From Knoellia sp. p5-6-4 (lineage in GTDB: Bacteria; Actinomycetota; Actinomycetes; Actinomycetales; Dermatophilaceae), in NCBI RefSeq assembly GCF_029222705.1, contig NZ_JARGZF010000001.1, positions 1,236,437-1,300,436 on the forward strand: DNA of 64,000 nucleotides. Reading direction: 5' to 3'. How positions within the stretch are numbered: position 1 is the first letter of the stretch; the number at the start of each line of letters is the position of its first letter. Shown in pieces: positions 38,620 to 47,180 of this stretch. Below the pieces are notes generated by a model. The model was not told the DNA's origin. It searched no databases and was given only the letters and a program-made list of their open reading frames with translations. The translations under genes were made by a program, and so were the position numbers.

Positions 38620-38689
38620 TGTGACCGGGGTCTCCTGACATTTCCGGAGATTTCGTGGAAACTGGCCGGCGGAGGTGGGCCGTATCCGC

Positions 38690-39514
38690 ATGCCACAGAG
38701 CCGTCATGCCGCGAGTGCTGTCGCGGCATGCCGTGCTGCCCTGGGGACGCTGGCACCCCTGCCTGCTGGGTCAACGATCCCTTCGCCCCCCGGTTACGGC
38801 CCTGCCGCCGGCCCCCGTGGCAGCCGCCACGGCCTGCCCGAGGCCACTGCCCAGATGCTGGGCTCGCTGCGACAGCTCCTCAGCGTCGCCGAGGGTGCCG
38901 GCGCCGGCCGCGGTCCCGGCGACGGCGCCTCCCGTGCGGGCTTCGCGCCGGGCACCGCCCCGCAGGACTTCGAGCGGGTCTCGGCGCTGGTCGAGCTGGC
39001 CCAGGGCGGTGACGCCGAGGCCTTCGGACTGCTCTACGAGCGGTACGTCGACGTCGTCTACCGGTACATCTACGTGCGCGTGGGCAGCGCCCACCTCGCC
39101 GAGGACCTGACCTCCGAGACGTTCCTGCGCGCGCTGCGCCGGATGGACTCCTTCTCCTGGCAGGGACGTGACATCGCGGCGTGGTTCATCACCATCGCGC
39201 GCAACCTCATCACCGACAACGCCAAGTCCGCCCGGTTCCGCCTCGAGGTCACCACCGCCGACATGCTCGACGCCGACGAGCAGGTCGACGCCCCCGAGTC
39301 CGAGGTCCTCCAGCGTCTGCGCGACACCCGGCTCATCGAGGCGGTCAAGAACCTCAAGCCGGAGCAGGCCGAGTGCGTGGTCCTGCGCTTCCTCCAGGGC
39401 CTGACGCTGGCCGAGACGGCGAAGGTCCTCGGCAAGACCGAGGGCGCCGTCAAGCAGCTCCAGCTGCGCGCCGTGCGCGCCCTGCACCGGGAGCTCGCCG
39501 ATGTGGACCTCTAG
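38690..39514 (+). CDS. bldN: BldN-type ECF RNA polymerase sigma factor
   Basis: A 274-residue ECF sigma factor. Residues about 100-165 form region 2 (EAFGLLYERYVDVVYRY, LTSETFLRALRRM, WFITIARNL). The linker FRLEVTTADMLDADE and region 4 (VVLRFLQGLTLAETAKVLGKTEGAVKQLQ) are very like Streptomyces BldN, including the long N-terminal extension that is proteolytically processed there. Next comes an RsbN-like anti-sigma gene with a BldN-type promoter. The start is uncertain: ATG 38690 has GGAGG 14 bases upstream, and a GTG at 38675 and an ATG near 38854 are alternatives. Target genes in this organism are unknown. Confidence 0.87.
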   Translation: MPQSRHAASAVAACRAALGTLAPLPAGSTIPSPPGYGPAAGPRGSRHGLPEATAQMLGSLRQLLSVAEGAGAGRGPGDGASRAGFAPGTAPQDFERVSALVELAQGGDAEAFGLLYERYVDVVYRYIYVRVGSAHLAEDLTSETFLRALRRMDSFSWQGRDIAAWFITIARNLITDNAKSARFRLEVTTADMLDADEQVDAPESEVLQRLRDTRLIEAVKNLKPEQAECVVLRFLQGLTLAETAKVLGKTEGAVKQLQLRAVRALHRELADVDL

Positions 39515-39563
39515 GCCGGTCGTGGGCGCCGGAACCGACGCCCGGTTCCGCTACGAGCCGGAG

Positions 39564-39591
39564 CGTAACCTCCGTGCGGGTGCGTCGTTCT
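39564..39591 (+). promoter_or_regulatory. Predicted BldN-dependent promoter of the rsbN-like gene
   Basis: CGTAAC (39564-39569), then 16 bases, then CGTTCT (39586-39591). As I recall, the Streptomyces BldN consensus is CGTAAC-N16-CGTTGA, so the -35 is perfect and the -10 matches in 4 of 6 positions. It implies a start of transcription just before 39600 and autoregulation of the anti-sigma gene. Confidence 0.6.
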
Positions 39592-39634
39592 CATGGCGTC
39601 ACACGTCCACAGAGCCGGGGGAGGAGACATCGGC

Positions 39635-40810
39635 ATGCTCGTGAACCGTCGCGCGGCGGACCGGCTCCAGCGCGCCCTCGAGGGCGGGGAGGCCACCGAT
39701 GCCGAGACCGCCCGCCTGACCCGCACCGCGCAGGCCCTGGCTTCTGTCCCCGTGGGCGCGGGCGCCCCCCGGCCGGAGTTCGTCGAGCAGCTGCACGAGC
39801 GCCTGATGGCCGAGGCCGCCACGCTTCCTGTCGCTGCCCGCTCCGCCGGGGCGCGGCGCACCGAGTCCACCGTCCGCCGCGGCGGACCCGTCGTCGTGGT
39901 GGTCGGGCGCGGGCTCCCCCGCGCCCTGGCCGGCGCTGCCGCGTCGGCGCTCGTGGTCGGAGCGGTCGTGGGCGTGGCCTCCCGCAGCGCGATCCCCGGC
40001 TCGGCGCTCTACCCCGTCAAGGGCTGGCTCGACTCGGTGGCCGTGCAGATGGCCGGCTCCGAGCTCGACCGGGGCCGGACCCACCTGGCCCAGGCGGAGG
40101 AGCACATCGCCGACACCCGCGAACTCACCGACCGCCGCGTCGAGGACGCCGACCCCTACATCGAGGCGCTGCAGCAGGCCGTGCTGGCCGTCCGCGCCGC
40201 GCAGAGCGAGCTCGGCCGGGCATACGACGAGACCGGCAACCCCCAGGCGCTCATCGCGCTGCGCGACTTCACCTCCCGGGCCGAACCGCAGGTGGAGGCG
40301 CTGCGGCCCGAGGTGCCCGCCGAGGCGCTTCCCGTGCTCGGGGAGCTCGAGTCCCTGCTCAACGACACCGAGCAGGCCGCGCTGCGCCGACTGGCGTCCT
40401 GCGCTCCCACCTGCGTGACGCTCCAGGAGATCGGCGTGAGCCCCTCCGACCTGCCCTCGCTGGGCGCCCCGGCGGCCGGGTCGTCGACGCTCTCGCGGGC
40501 CGTTGGCGGCATCACCGTGCCGGGCACCGCGATCACCGCCGACCCCGGCGGCGGTCAGCCGGCCCCGGGCGTCACGGCAGGGTCGGATGGCGTCACCATC
40601 GGTGACGGCGGCGGCGGCGCCACGCTCTCCACGAATGGGGCAGGCATCAACGGGCCGACGCTGTCCGCCTCCGCTACGCGCCTGCCCGGCGTGAGCGCGA
40701 CCCTCCCCTCGGTCGGCGTCACCAGCGACGGCGCCGGGGCGACCGTGCCCGACACCACGCTGGGCAGCGTGACCCTGCCGGGGCTGACCGCGACGGTGCC
40801 GCTCCCCTAG
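39635..40810 (+). CDS. rsbN: RsbN-like anti-sigma factor (DUF5667 domain membrane protein)
   Basis: A 391-residue single-pass membrane protein. The cytoplasmic N-terminus (about 85 residues) would bind the sigma factor, a transmembrane helix follows (LAGAAASALVVGAVVGVAS), and the outer part begins with the DUF5667 signature (ALYPVKGWLDSVAVQM; RTHLAQAEEHIADTREL). The last about 110 residues are Gly/Thr/Ser/Pro-rich low complexity, longer than I expect for RsbN. Start: ATG with GGGGGAGGAG at 39617-39626, 8 bases upstream; the in-frame ATG at 39593 is rejected because the predicted transcript starts near there. Pairing with BldN is inferred from order, domain and promoter. Confidence 0.8.
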   Translation: MLVNRRAADRLQRALEGGEATDAETARLTRTAQALASVPVGAGAPRPEFVEQLHERLMAEAATLPVAARSAGARRTESTVRRGGPVVVVVGRGLPRALAGAAASALVVGAVVGVASRSAIPGSALYPVKGWLDSVAVQMAGSELDRGRTHLAQAEEHIADTRELTDRRVEDADPYIEALQQAVLAVRAAQSELGRAYDETGNPQALIALRDFTSRAEPQVEALRPEVPAEALPVLGELESLLNDTEQAALRRLASCAPTCVTLQEIGVSPSDLPSLGAPAAGSSTLSRAVGGITVPGTAITADPGGGQPAPGVTAGSDGVTIGDGGGGATLSTNGAGINGPTLSASATRLPGVSATLPSVGVTSDGAGATVPDTTLGSVTLPGLTATVPLP

Positions 40811-43656: not shown

Positions 43657-43854
43657 AGTCGTCCTCGCGTGTGTGTGGTGTCGTGTTGCCGGACGGGGCA
43701 ACGAGCTACGCACCACGCCGAACAGTGCGGGTCACTCTACCGGCCTCCCGTCGCCCAGCCCAAACCGGGCCGGCACCGCAGGCATAACCAACGGCCGCCC
43801 ACGTCGTTTTCCGGGCATCGGGCCGACGGTGCCCGCACCACGACAGGAGCAGCG

Positions 43855-46800
43855 GTGAACAGATCGCGCACGCAGCTGACCGCACTGGGGGTGTGCCTGC
43901 TCTCGGGGGCACTGCTGGCCACCCCCGTCGCCACGGCCACGGCCTCGTCGGCCACCCCGGACGCAGACCCGGCGCTCGCCGGGCTCGGCGACTCGGTGTC
44001 CGAGCTGACCCGGACGCTGGACACCAGGGCGGTCGAGGAGGCGGTCGTCCCCAGCGCCGCCACCACGAAGGCCCTCACGTCCCTCCTCGCCGACTCGGGC
44101 AAGGGAGCCCGGGCCACCTGGGACGAGCGCTTCGGCACGCTGCGCTCGCTGCGCGGGCCGGCTCCGCTGACCGCGGCGCGGGAGGGCTCGGCAGCCGACA
44201 TCGCGCGCGCCTGGGTCGCCGACAACGCCGCCGCCTTCGGGCTCGGCGCCACGTCGGTCGGGGCGTTGAAGGTGGTCCGCGACCACACCCTGCCCGGCAC
44301 GGGCACCCATGTCGTCAGCCTGGTGCAGACCGCCGGCGGCGTCGCCGCCGCGCGGGGCGGGCGCCTCAACGTCGCCGTCACCAAGGACGGCCGGGTGCTG
44401 TCGTATGCCGGTGACCCGACGCCCGGCGACGGCCTCACCGGCGGCTGGGTGATCGGCGAGGCCGGGGCGGTGCTCAAGGCCGCCGGAACCCTGGCGCCCG
44501 GAGTGGCCTACGCGCCCAAGGCGGACGGCACGCAGGCCGGCTACACCACCTTCGCCAAGGGACCCTTCGGTGGCCCGTCGTACGCGAAGAAGGTGACCTT
44601 CGGGACGAAGGCCGGTGCGGTCGCGGCATACCGGGTGTACTTCATCAAGAGCCCGACGGAAGCCTGGGAGGTCATCCTCGACGGGACCACCGGCAGGGTG
44701 CTCTACCGGGCATCGGTCGTGCAGCACGAGGACGACCCGCAGGGCACCGTGTACGACAACTACCCGGGGGCGGCGAAGGGCGGCACGCCCCGCCAGCAGT
44801 CCTTCGGGCAGACCGCGCAGTCGCCGAAGGGCTGGGTCGACCCGACCGGGCTCGTCGGCACGGGCGTGACGACGTTCGGCAACAACGCCGACACCCACGC
44901 CAACTGGTCGAACTTCATCGGCCCCGTCGACAGCGCCCCGCGGCCCGTCTCGCCCACCGGCAACTTCTCCTACGTCTTCAAGGACGCCTGGCAGCAGAAG
45001 GAGGGGGCCACCGTGCCGCCGTCCTACGCCGAGGACCTCGAGCCGGCGGCGACCAACCTCTTCTTCCAGCACAACCGGATCCACGACGACTACTACGCGC
45101 TCGGCTTCACCGAGTCCGGCGGCAACTTCCAGGTCGACAACGGCGGCAAGGGCGGCCTGGGCGGCGACCCGATCAAGGGCCTCGTGCAGGCCGGGGCAGC
45201 ATCCGGCGGCTCGCCCACCTACACCGGGCGCGACAACGCCTACATGCTCACCCTCGACGACGGCATCCCGCCGTGGAGCGGCATGTTCCTGTGGGAGCCG
45301 ATCAACGACGCCTTCGAGGGGCCCCACCGCGACGGCTCGATGGACATGAGCGTCATCCAGCACGAGTACAGCCACGGCCTGTCGAACCGCTACGTCGCGG
45401 GCGGCAGCGCGCTCGGCTCGCACCAGGCGGGCTCGATGGGTGAGGGCTGGGGCGACTGGTACGCCCTCAACCACGCCCAGAAGACCGGCCTGGAGCCCAC
45501 GCGGGCGGTCGTCGGGGCGTACGCCACGGGCAACGACAACCGCGGCATCCGCAACTACGACTTCAACAAGAACCCCAACACCTTCGGCGACATGGGCTAC
45601 GACCTGACCGGCCCGGAGGTGCACGCGGACGGCGAGATCTGGACCGCCATCCTGTGGGACCTGCACAAGGCCCTCGTCGCGCGCCACGGCCTGGCCGAGG
45701 GTGCCGAGGTCGCGGCGCGGCTCGTCACCGACGCCATGCCGCTCATGGCCCCGGACCCGTCCTTCCTAGACGCCCGCGACGCCATGCTGACCGCCGACCT
45801 CGACCGCTACCACGGTGACAACACCGACCTGATGTGGTCGGTGTTCGCCAAGCGTGGCGCCGGCGCCTCAGCGGTCTCCGCCACCGGCGACGACACCGAT
45901 CCGACCCCGGCGTTCGACCACCCCGCAGCGGCGAAGAACGGCACCGTCGCGCTGACCCTGGTCAACGCCAGCACCGGCCAGAAGATCCCGAACGCCAAGG
46001 TCATCCTCGGCCGCTTCGAGGCCCGGGTCAGCCCGCTGGGCAGGACCGGGTCGACCGGCGGGTACTCGGTCAAGGCGGTGGCGGGCACCTACCCGCTGAC
46101 GATCCAGGCGCCCGGCTTCGGCACCCAGACGATCGAGGGCTTCTCCGTGGCGGCCGGCAGGAACGCGGCCCGGACGGTCTCCCTCGCCCCGAACCTCGCC
46201 TCGACGGCAGCGGGGGCGAGCATCGTGTCGGCCTCCAGCCAGGACGACGGGTCGCCGGCGAAGTTCGCCTTCGACGACACGGCGGCCTCGGTGTGGTCGA
46301 CGAATGCGGGGGACGCGGCCTACAACGCCGGCCCCGACCAGCGGGTGACGGTCAAGCTGGCCGCGCCAGCCACGGTGTCGTCGCTGCGGGTCAGCGCCTT
46401 CAAGGCCACCAACGCCTCGCGTTTCGCGGCGCTGCGGGACTTCACCTTCCAGACCTCGACCGACGGCGTCACCTGGTCGACGGTGAAGAAGGGCGGCTTC
46501 GGCTACGAGGCGCCGCGGCCCACGGCGGCGGACCTGAACTACCGCACCTTCGCGCTCGACAAGCCGGTCCAGGCCTCGTACGTGCGCTTCTTCGTCGACT
46601 CGGTGCAGGGCGACACGACGACCTACGCGCAGGTGGCCGACATCCAGGTGTTCGGCTCGGGCGCCTCGGTGGCCAACGGCTCGGTGACGCCCGACCCGGA
46701 CTACACCGACGCCGGCACCATCACCGCCCCCAACCCCGCCGCGGGTGACCCGACCGGGCTGGCGAACGTCTTCGGCGTGACCGGCACGGAGATGAACACG

Positions 46801-47097
46801 GCGTGCACCTTCCCGCCCGCCTCCCAGGGCGCGGACGCCTGGGTGACCAAGTTCCCGCTCGGCTTCTCCGACGGGCTGCACTCGGTGACGGTGAAGGGCA
46901 CGAGCGACGCGGACGACAGCCTCGGGCACGACCTCGACCTGTACTTCCTCGACAGCGAGTGCCAGCTGACCGGGGCCGCGGCCTCCTCGGCGGCGGACGA
47001 GTCGGCGGTCATCCCGCCCGGCTCGGTCTACCTGGTGACCCAGCTCTACACCGGCGCCGAGGTGGCGGTCGAGGTGCGGGCCGTCGACAACCGCTGA
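43855..47097 (+). CDS. Secreted M36 (fungalysin) zinc metalloprotease with discoidin-like domain
   Basis: A 1080-residue secreted protease. A signal peptide (about 1-33) and a long FTP/PepSY-type propeptide (to about 290) precede the catalytic domain. The zinc motif is HEYSHG at residues 503-508, and the third ligand Glu is in GEGWGDW at 530. After residue 690 come a carboxypeptidase-regulatory-like beta domain (VNASTGQKIPNAKV), an F5/8-type C discoidin-like domain (about 790-925) and a C-terminal beta module. It presumably degrades extracellular protein. The GTG start has AGGAG about 6 bases upstream. A perfect hairpin follows. It interrupts a gene order that is otherwise conserved. Confidence 0.9.
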   Translation: MNRSRTQLTALGVCLLSGALLATPVATATASSATPDADPALAGLGDSVSELTRTLDTRAVEEAVVPSAATTKALTSLLADSGKGARATWDERFGTLRSLRGPAPLTAAREGSAADIARAWVADNAAAFGLGATSVGALKVVRDHTLPGTGTHVVSLVQTAGGVAAARGGRLNVAVTKDGRVLSYAGDPTPGDGLTGGWVIGEAGAVLKAAGTLAPGVAYAPKADGTQAGYTTFAKGPFGGPSYAKKVTFGTKAGAVAAYRVYFIKSPTEAWEVILDGTTGRVLYRASVVQHEDDPQGTVYDNYPGAAKGGTPRQQSFGQTAQSPKGWVDPTGLVGTGVTTFGNNADTHANWSNFIGPVDSAPRPVSPTGNFSYVFKDAWQQKEGATVPPSYAEDLEPAATNLFFQHNRIHDDYYALGFTESGGNFQVDNGGKGGLGGDPIKGLVQAGAASGGSPTYTGRDNAYMLTLDDGIPPWSGMFLWEPINDAFEGPHRDGSMDMSVIQHEYSHGLSNRYVAGGSALGSHQAGSMGEGWGDWYALNHAQKTGLEPTRAVVGAYATGNDNRGIRNYDFNKNPNTFGDMGYDLTGPEVHADGEIWTAILWDLHKALVARHGLAEGAEVAARLVTDAMPLMAPDPSFLDARDAMLTADLDRYHGDNTDLMWSVFAKRGAGASAVSATGDDTDPTPAFDHPAAAKNGTVALTLVNASTGQKIPNAKVILGRFEARVSPLGRTGSTGGYSVKAVAGTYPLTIQAPGFGTQTIEGFSVAAGRNAARTVSLAPNLASTAAGASIVSASSQDDGSPAKFAFDDTAASVWSTNAGDAAYNAGPDQRVTVKLAAPATVSSLRVSAFKATNASRFAALRDFTFQTSTDGVTWSTVKKGGFGYEAPRPTAADLNYRTFALDKPVQASYVRFFVDSVQGDTTTYAQVADIQVFGSGASVANGSVTPDPDYTDAGTITAPNPAAGDPTGLANVFGVTGTEMNTACTFPPASQGADAWVTKFPLGFSDGLHSVTVKGTSDADDSLGHDLDLYFLDSECQLTGAAASSAADESAVIPPGSVYLVTQLYTGAEVAVEVRAVDNR

Positions 47098-47125
47098 GGC
47101 CGGAGCCGAAAGGAGCACCGACAGA

Positions 47126-47160
47126 GAGGGCGGGCCGGGGAGATCCCCCGGCCCGCCCTC
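47126..47160. terminator. Hairpin terminator between convergent genes
   Basis: A perfect 15-base stem (GAGGGCGGGCCGGGG and its complement) with a 5-base loop. It follows the metalloprotease stop by 28 bases and the convergent HTH gene by 20 bases. Confidence 0.85.
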
Positions 47161-47180
47161 ACCTGTTTCTCAGCGGCCAA

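Follow-up and report, generated by a model that had tools for sequence, protein, structure and literature searches.

The sigma factor BldN is best known from Streptomyces, where it acts in the switch to aerial hyphae, controls bldM and the chaplins, is itself under the control of BldD and is paired with the anti-sigma factor RsbN. It presumably belongs to ECF121, one of the groups of extracytoplasmic function (ECF) sigma factors. In the passages of a 2013 review that treat its distribution, convincing and syntenic BldN matches are reported only from morphologically complex actinomycetes, and the gene is tied to the emergence of that complexity (PMC4255298). The locus described here lies in a 64,000-nucleotide stretch of the genome of Knoellia sp. 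p5-6-4 (contig NZ_JARGZF010000001.1), referred to below in its entirety as the window; the host (genome G000 in our numbering) is taken, by its GTDB kinship, as a member of the genus Pedococcus. At the locus, the open reading frames (ORFs) and the sequence reveal a sigma gene, a gap of 120 nt, and a gene for a membrane protein. Comparison with related genomes suggests that this is probably a bldN-rsbN sigma/anti-sigma pair retained in Pedococcus, complete with feedback on rsbN and a regulon of envelope, lipid-transport and RNA genes. The core elements are as follows.

38684 to 39514, plus strand: BldN-type ECF sigma factor gene, with a candidate start at ATC 38684, an ATG at 38690 and the stop codon at 39512-39514.
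39564 to 39591, plus strand: BldN-type promoter of the anti-sigma gene, CGTAAC-N16-CGTTCT (CGTAAC at 39564-39569, CGTTCT at 39586-39591).
39620 to 39626, plus strand: Shine-Dalgarno sequence GGAGGAG of the anti-sigma gene, ahead of ATG 39635.
39635 to 40810, plus strand: RsbN-type anti-sigma gene of 391 residues, starting at ATG 39635, with the DUF5667 domain at residues 119-228.

Pfam matches sigma factor regions 2 and 4 in the sigma protein, and its N-terminal extension runs for about 100 residues before the core; in Streptomyces the long extension of BldN is processed. The top-ranking NCBIfam model is TIGR02952, "BldN family" (191 bits, E 1.5e-56), with the next family 90 bits lower, and the closest PDB match is 6dxo_A from the S. 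venezuelae complex (E 1e-50). The membrane protein, present as a single copy in the host genome, matches DUF5667 at 33.9 bits against a Pfam cut-off of 27. Its predicted structure (mean pLDDT 64) has three cytoplasmic helices at residues 5-15, 23-36 and 47-63, followed by a helix at 97-119, taken in the model to be the membrane helix, and then a helical bundle. A Foldseek search with this model returned no matches at E <= 0.001, only weak similarities to helix bundles. The anti-sigma family profile aligned by hhalign with RsbN of a Streptomyces-like genus, g81, over the membrane helix and outer domain (probability 98.9, E 1.1e-17), and an RsbN profile matched the crystallised RsbN chain, 6dxo_D (E 3.8e-10), only when it included the g81 rows.

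Gene order provides a second line of evidence. In tblastn searches with the window's proteins, the order hemC-hemA-rex-Grx (minus strand), HAD (plus), sigma (plus), DUF5667 protein (plus), PlsC (minus), epimerase (minus) proved common to the window and two g81 loci, L223 and L224, whose sigma factors by eye contain long stretches identical to the 6dxo chain. In the two g81 genomes searched, the refined promoter motif described below picks out rsbN and a response regulator of 203 residues, which we take to be BldM. BldM is itself listed among the known BldN targets in the review's account (PMC4255298). Because of the 6dxo-identical stretches and the BldM-like target, g81 is most simply read as Streptomyces or a close relative, and the shared gene order therefore identifies the pair in the window as a syntenic bldN-rsbN pair. 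A locus of Streptomyces camponoticapitis, L094, was considered as a further bldN locus and rejected, as the neighbours of bldN were not found there. Loci of Frankia, Saccharopolyspora and Actinopolyspora yielded no RsbN by tblastn and no CGTAAC-N16/17-CGTT after the sigma gene.

The two proteins also travel together. Genomes were called sigma-positive at E <= 1e-70 among 58 relatives and at E <= 1e-60 among 186 genomes of the family; one genome with a sigma match at E 2.5e-23 and no DUF5667 (G050) was counted as negative. Ten of the 58 relatives have a strong sigma ortholog. These ten, and none of the other 48, also have DUF5667, in nine cases above the family cut-off. Sigma orthologs are present in 36 of the 186 family genomes, representing 11 of 53 genera, and, at E <= 1e-25, in 156 of 394 genomes of the class; named loci also include Phycicoccus, Knoellia and Terrabacter. 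Intrasporangium, in the same family, forms a mycelium, so not every relative is morphologically simple. Pedococcus, for its part, is characterised in the portion of its description available to us as asporogenous cocci or short rods (PMC6113628), and the restriction of BldN to complex genera does not hold for it. A preliminary description of the locus had recognised the BldN-like sigma factor with its long extension, the promoter between the genes and the DUF5667 membrane protein, and had assigned the pair to the BldN/RsbN type; each of these elements is confirmed, and the assignment is strengthened by the sequence matches, the Streptomyces-like gene order, the RsbN profile-profile similarity and the co-occurrence of DUF5667 (10/10 versus 0/48).

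The promoter ahead of the anti-sigma gene is conserved. With at most one mismatch, CGTAAC-N16/17-CGTT follows the sigma stop codon in all 27 family-type loci (L032-L055, L057, L093 and the window) and is exact in 21. Among 20 class loci, three (L225, L233, L234) went unscored when a script found no sigma ORF in them; the site is exact in 14 of the remaining 17, the misses being two f36 loci and L235. The window as a whole contains CGTAAC-N16-CGTT with up to one mismatch four times (two exact) against 0.70 expected, and one of 100 shuffles reached four or more. Over the 3.81-Mb host genome the exact N16 pattern occurs five times and its reversed control not at all; allowing N16 or N17 gives ten sites versus one, and CGTGAC variants number six versus two. 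The scan that the preliminary description had called for does find the promoter ahead of other genes, and the absence of such genes, which would have spoken against its reading, was not observed.

The comparison of genomes with and without the sigma factor suggests that it recognises these CGTAAC-N16/17-CGTT promoters. Ten sigma-positive genomes contain 60 sites against 10 in the reversed control, whereas the 48 negative genomes contain 75 against 142. Over all 135 sites, a C or T after CGTAAC together with a T before CGTT flanks 47 of the 60 positive-genome sites and 8 of the 75 negative ones (p = 3e-16); with the bldN-locus sites left out, the sigma-positive genomes still show these flanks at 37 of 49 (p = 2e-13). 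Downstream context points the same way. With the bldN locus set aside, a coding-like ORF with a Shine-Dalgarno start begins 20-90 nt 3' of the motif at 26 of 48 positive sites, at none of 21 negative sites (of the 75, one locus per genome; p = 5e-6), and at 12 of 146 background positions. The refined motif was then sought in 28 further sigma-positive family genomes, where it occurs 134 times against 2 in the reversed control and at least once in 27 of the 28, and in 14 class genomes, where it occurs 44 times against none and at least once in 13. ECF promoters often share AAC and CGT, the genomes have many ECF genes, and the sigma query has 17 matches in the host genome at E 0.001, so one might suppose that most of these promoters are served by a different ECF sigma factor, with the rsbN promoter alone left to the BldN ortholog. 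Yet an excess of the motif is seen in sigma-positive genomes and not in the others, and the rsbN site carries the same extended motif, which leaves that explanation very unlikely.

In the 28 further genomes 106 sites lie away from the bldN locus; 80 of them were examined, picked by genome before their contents were seen, and the targets are named after their Pfam families. Homologs of targets first found elsewhere follow 53 of them: an MlaF/MceG-type ATPase at 15, an S15/CocE hydrolase, a transglycosylase and an S8 protease at 10 each, an MCE protein at four, and others at four. Another 15 precede a two-hairpin RNA (11) or its Terrabacter-type version (4). Among 26 genomes examined, mceG has a site in 23 and lacks one in G031, G051 and G465; in the host genome the MceG-type ATPase is followed by two MlaE-type permeases, named by eye. 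Three surface proteins behind sites in the host genome, G001 and G057 end in LAFTG and a hydrophobic tail; LAXTG is the signal of sortase E and is also used by long chaplins. Among the class genomes, 30 of 44 sites were examined for targets. In part of the f45 sites, covering six genomes, the motif precedes in three genomes a transglycosylase 50-59% identical to that of the host, and this target therefore extends beyond the family. It could be argued that the pair, though truly orthologous, has become a relic, with only the rsbN loop kept and all other promoter matches due to chance; sites are few in each genome (0-10) and some stand before no recognisable gene. However, the 134 sites against 2, the recurrence of the same gene families behind sites whose spacers differ (and measure 16 or 17 nt depending on the genome), and the lack of a gene start behind any of the 21 sites from sigma-negative genomes make a relic extremely improbable.

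By analogy with S. venezuelae RsbN, the anti-sigma factor would hold the sigma factor at the membrane through its three-helix cytoplasmic domain, while the DUF5667 domain would face outward and presumably sense a signal. Once freed, the sigma factor would read CGTAAC(C/T)-N14-15-TCGTT promoters. Transcription of rsbN would close a negative feedback loop, and other transcripts would supply the Mce lipid-import operon, a secreted lytic transglycosylase, the S8 protease, the S15/CocE hydrolase, LAXTG-tailed surface proteins and the two-hairpin RNA. Sequence comparison establishes the orthology, the gene order, the conserved promoter, the recurrence of the targets and the covariation in the RNA; binding between the proteins, sensing of a signal, transcription from the sites and roles for the RNA and for an antisense site described below are inferred.

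Several observations weigh against a retained pair with a regulon of this kind. The TIGR02952 score lies some 15 bits below that model's 206.45-bit cut-off, and the RsbN profile built without the Streptomyces-like rows does not match the crystallised RsbN chain. One genome, G320, has no site at all, and two others, G135 and G443, have only the rsbN site. No target could be assigned to 12 of the 80 examined sites, nor to two of the ten in the host genome (C1:95854 and C1:1063549). The only target seen to be held in common with the Streptomyces-like sites examined is rsbN, and the host genome has no match to the chaplin domain, PF03777. The search for chaplin-like genes that the preliminary description had proposed thus found none in the host; this and the recurrent envelope, lipid-transport and RNA targets support its suggestion of a different role for the module here, and make it specific. 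Matches to PF03777 above the cut-off, all weak, occur in three of the 58 relatives, the sigma-positive G029 and G033 and the sigma-negative G006; those at L192 and L194 (G033:C4) and at L193 (G029:C7) are weak matches within longer ORFs. No bldM-like gene stood behind the family sites examined, although no whole-genome search was aimed at bldM.

At several sites there was no gene at the usual distance, and a strong hairpin stood instead at the predicted start of transcription. Ten such RNA sequences, aligned by MAFFT alone, form two hairpins with 36 pairs, of which 19 show compensatory double changes. Not one of five measures applied to this fold was reached in 500 shuffles, and structures slid along the alignment gave at most six compensatory pairs. 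Loop 1 carries the C-rich CCCCGGCTC and loop 2 the G-rich GCAGGG; pairing between the two loops, computed for four genomes, gave no consistent duplex. A covariance model built without G000, G001, G031, G547 and G556 matched 16 of the 186 family genomes at E <= 0.01. Fifteen of these make up the whole Pedococcus/Phycicoccus clade, two of them with a further weak match each, and the sixteenth is a sigma-negative genome, G471 (E 0.006). The copy in the host genome lies at G000:C2:1180269-1180356, where no clear hairpin 2 is seen. In the family's 21 remaining sigma-positive genomes the model had no match, and some of these have, by eye, a diverged version. Applied to 41 sequence sources, the model gives diverged versions poor scores (E 0.05 to 1) that do not exceed the score of a hairpin in the window (47094-47165, E 0.045). 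The Terrabacter-type version was therefore recognised by reading the sequences and not by the model.

An exact BldN-type site precedes the best RNA match in 14 of the 15 clade genomes; in G547 it lies 26 nt further upstream, and in G031 the contig ends there. All copies except that of G031 were first found through the promoter, and the model search re-found the copies genome-wide; because of that history, the promoter before the RNA is not an independent test. Many of the RNA promoters (among L376-L390) have an A/T-rich stretch, for example GAAAGTTTC, some 20-30 nt upstream of CGTAAC, perhaps an UP element. The 6C RNA of high-GC Gram-positive bacteria also consists of hairpins with C-rich loops. 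In the present RNA, however, only loop 1 is rich in C, loop 2 being G-rich, and identity with 6C RNA was rejected: Rfam searches of ten loci at E <= 1 and five loci at E <= 5 gave no match above the gathering threshold, only sub-threshold matches to other families, with no 6C among them.

As for its function, the RNA may act as a small RNA in trans, and there is a somewhat weaker case that it is a protective 5' leader or a terminator between convergent genes. In the host genome and G001 an hsp20 gene follows the RNA at a distance of about 240-265 nt, on the same strand; elsewhere, in several genomes, the RNA is by eye antisense to a neighbouring gene, and hairpin 2 is not evident in either G000 or G556. 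A convergent terminator would not need such a promoter, though, and the hairpin begins at the predicted start of an exact promoter in 13 genomes and 26 nt later in G547. Both loops, moreover, are conserved, and a short U-rich stretch often follows hairpin 2.

The preliminary description did not include a further site, the second exact one in the window beside the rsbN promoter.

38771 to 38798, minus strand: BldN-type site CGTAAC-N16-CGTTGA inside the sigma gene, exact, reading antisense over the sigma start.

This antisense site is exact in seven of the 15 clade genomes and has one mismatch in an eighth. Its copies are scattered over a weakly resolved tree, have unlike spacers and run contrary to codon preference. 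From these comparisons it is reasonably likely to be a working promoter, which in some genomes might provide a second brake on the sigma factor. A protein served by the site was considered and rejected, there being no conserved minus-strand ORF in ten aligned loci. There is a lesser but appreciable chance that the site merely coincides with a peptide, T...G-Y, conserved near the N-terminus of the sigma factor: Thr and Gly-Tyr are read in one and the same frame in the exact copies, and several of the genomes are closely related. Against this coincidence, the Gly codon is GGT in all seven exact copies (GGT makes up 12-16% of Gly codons in the sampled loci) and the Thr codon is ACG (25-40%), the base after ACG is always A despite a varying residue, and the motif is absent from seven of the 15 clade genomes.

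The sigma gene itself has two upstream signals that bear on where its translation begins.

38635 to 38663, plus strand: probable sigma-70-type promoter of the sigma gene (CTGACA at 38635-38640, N17, GAAACT at 38658-38663), conserved in position in the aligned clade genomes; its function is presumed.
38671 to 38675, plus strand: Shine-Dalgarno sequence GGAGG of the sigma gene, followed after 5-8 nt by ATC in 15 of 15 clade genomes.

This ATC shares the reading frame of the sigma gene in 14 of these 15 genomes; in G555 the frame is broken further on, the interruption (L252, G555:C1) falling between the N-terminal region and the core, whether real or a sequencing error. Nine of the 15 have no ATG, GTG or TTG within the 13 codons after ATC, and the distances from ATC to the HG motif vary by multiples of three. 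On this pattern, initiation at AUC (ATC 38684) is cautiously favoured. A start at ATG 38690 or further downstream nevertheless deserves serious consideration. Five of the 15 clade genomes have ATG as codon 3 (another has GTG as codon 2), and in the window a GTG at 38675 overlaps the Shine-Dalgarno sequence. Furthermore, in the ten loci tested, GC by codon position is flat between ATC and the HG motif (0.77, 0.74, 0.77) and coding-like after it (0.81, 0.60, 0.90). Terrabacter-type loci mostly have ATG at the homologous peptide and are apparently leaderless.

Further along the window, a secreted M36 fungalysin-type metallopeptidase gene (43855-47097) has a possible site of its own.

43783 to 43810, plus strand: tentative BldN-type site with one mismatch, CATAAC-N16-CGTTTT, 44 nt before GTG 43855 of the metallopeptidase gene.

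No similar site was present in the 26 relatives' loci scanned downstream. Just past the gene, at 47094-47179, one or more hairpins obtain weak scores with the RNA model on either strand (E 0.045 and 0.46) and are perhaps the M36 terminator. A few individual sites elsewhere may be recorded. The N17 site at G000:C1:1063549 (L181) lies 145 nt before a gene for a 224-residue repetitive protein without a Pfam match. One site in G547 (L300, C1:2983165) stands 135 nt before an apparent ECF sigma gene, named by eye, which raises the possibility of a sigma cascade. In three f45 genomes (L283, L285 and L294, from G432, G425 and G253) a site lies 149-186 nt before what by eye is a guaA-like gene, and L270 (G303:C1:285195) lies 71 nt before a gene for a 65-residue protein resembling Flp-type pilins.

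One broader, rather speculative reading is that BldN was at root an envelope-remodelling sigma factor of simple actinobacteria, serving a transglycosylase, an Mce importer, surface proteins and a dedicated RNA, and was only later recruited for aerial hyphae. On that reading, three brakes would act on the Pedococcus/Phycicoccus sigma factor: RsbN, an antisense transcript over its start that the factor itself drives, and the AUC start. The portions of the literature searched, including PMC7406223 and PMC9205884, hold no description of this regulon or RNA.

The locus thus resembles published accounts of Streptomyces BldN-RsbN, as far as the sections consulted extend (6dxo; PMC4255298, PMC8103513, PMC12096830), in gene order, in the sigma core, in the adjacent DUF5667 membrane anti-sigma factor and in the BldN-type promoter before rsbN. 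It likewise resembles ECF121-type sigma factors in having a dedicated, adjoining anti-sigma gene, but the relevant sections of that account give no comparable regulon (PMC8999054). Unlike the Streptomyces system, it lies in a genome without a chaplin match, within a genus whose members are characterised as asporogenous cocci or short rods, and its recurrent targets are an Mce operon, a transglycosylase, proteases, surface proteins and an RNA. A switch best known for aerial hyphae would then have been kept intact in a soil bacterium of such a genus, with both genes in syntenic order, the promoter and a regulon that recurs among relatives, and the comparison suggests cell-surface genes, a lipid importer and an RNA as its targets instead. 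If this is correct, an organism that lacks aerial hyphae would allow a direct test of the role of BldN outside development, a candidate regulator of Mce transport would be at hand, and an RNA with a promoter of its own, apparently undescribed so far, would have come to light.

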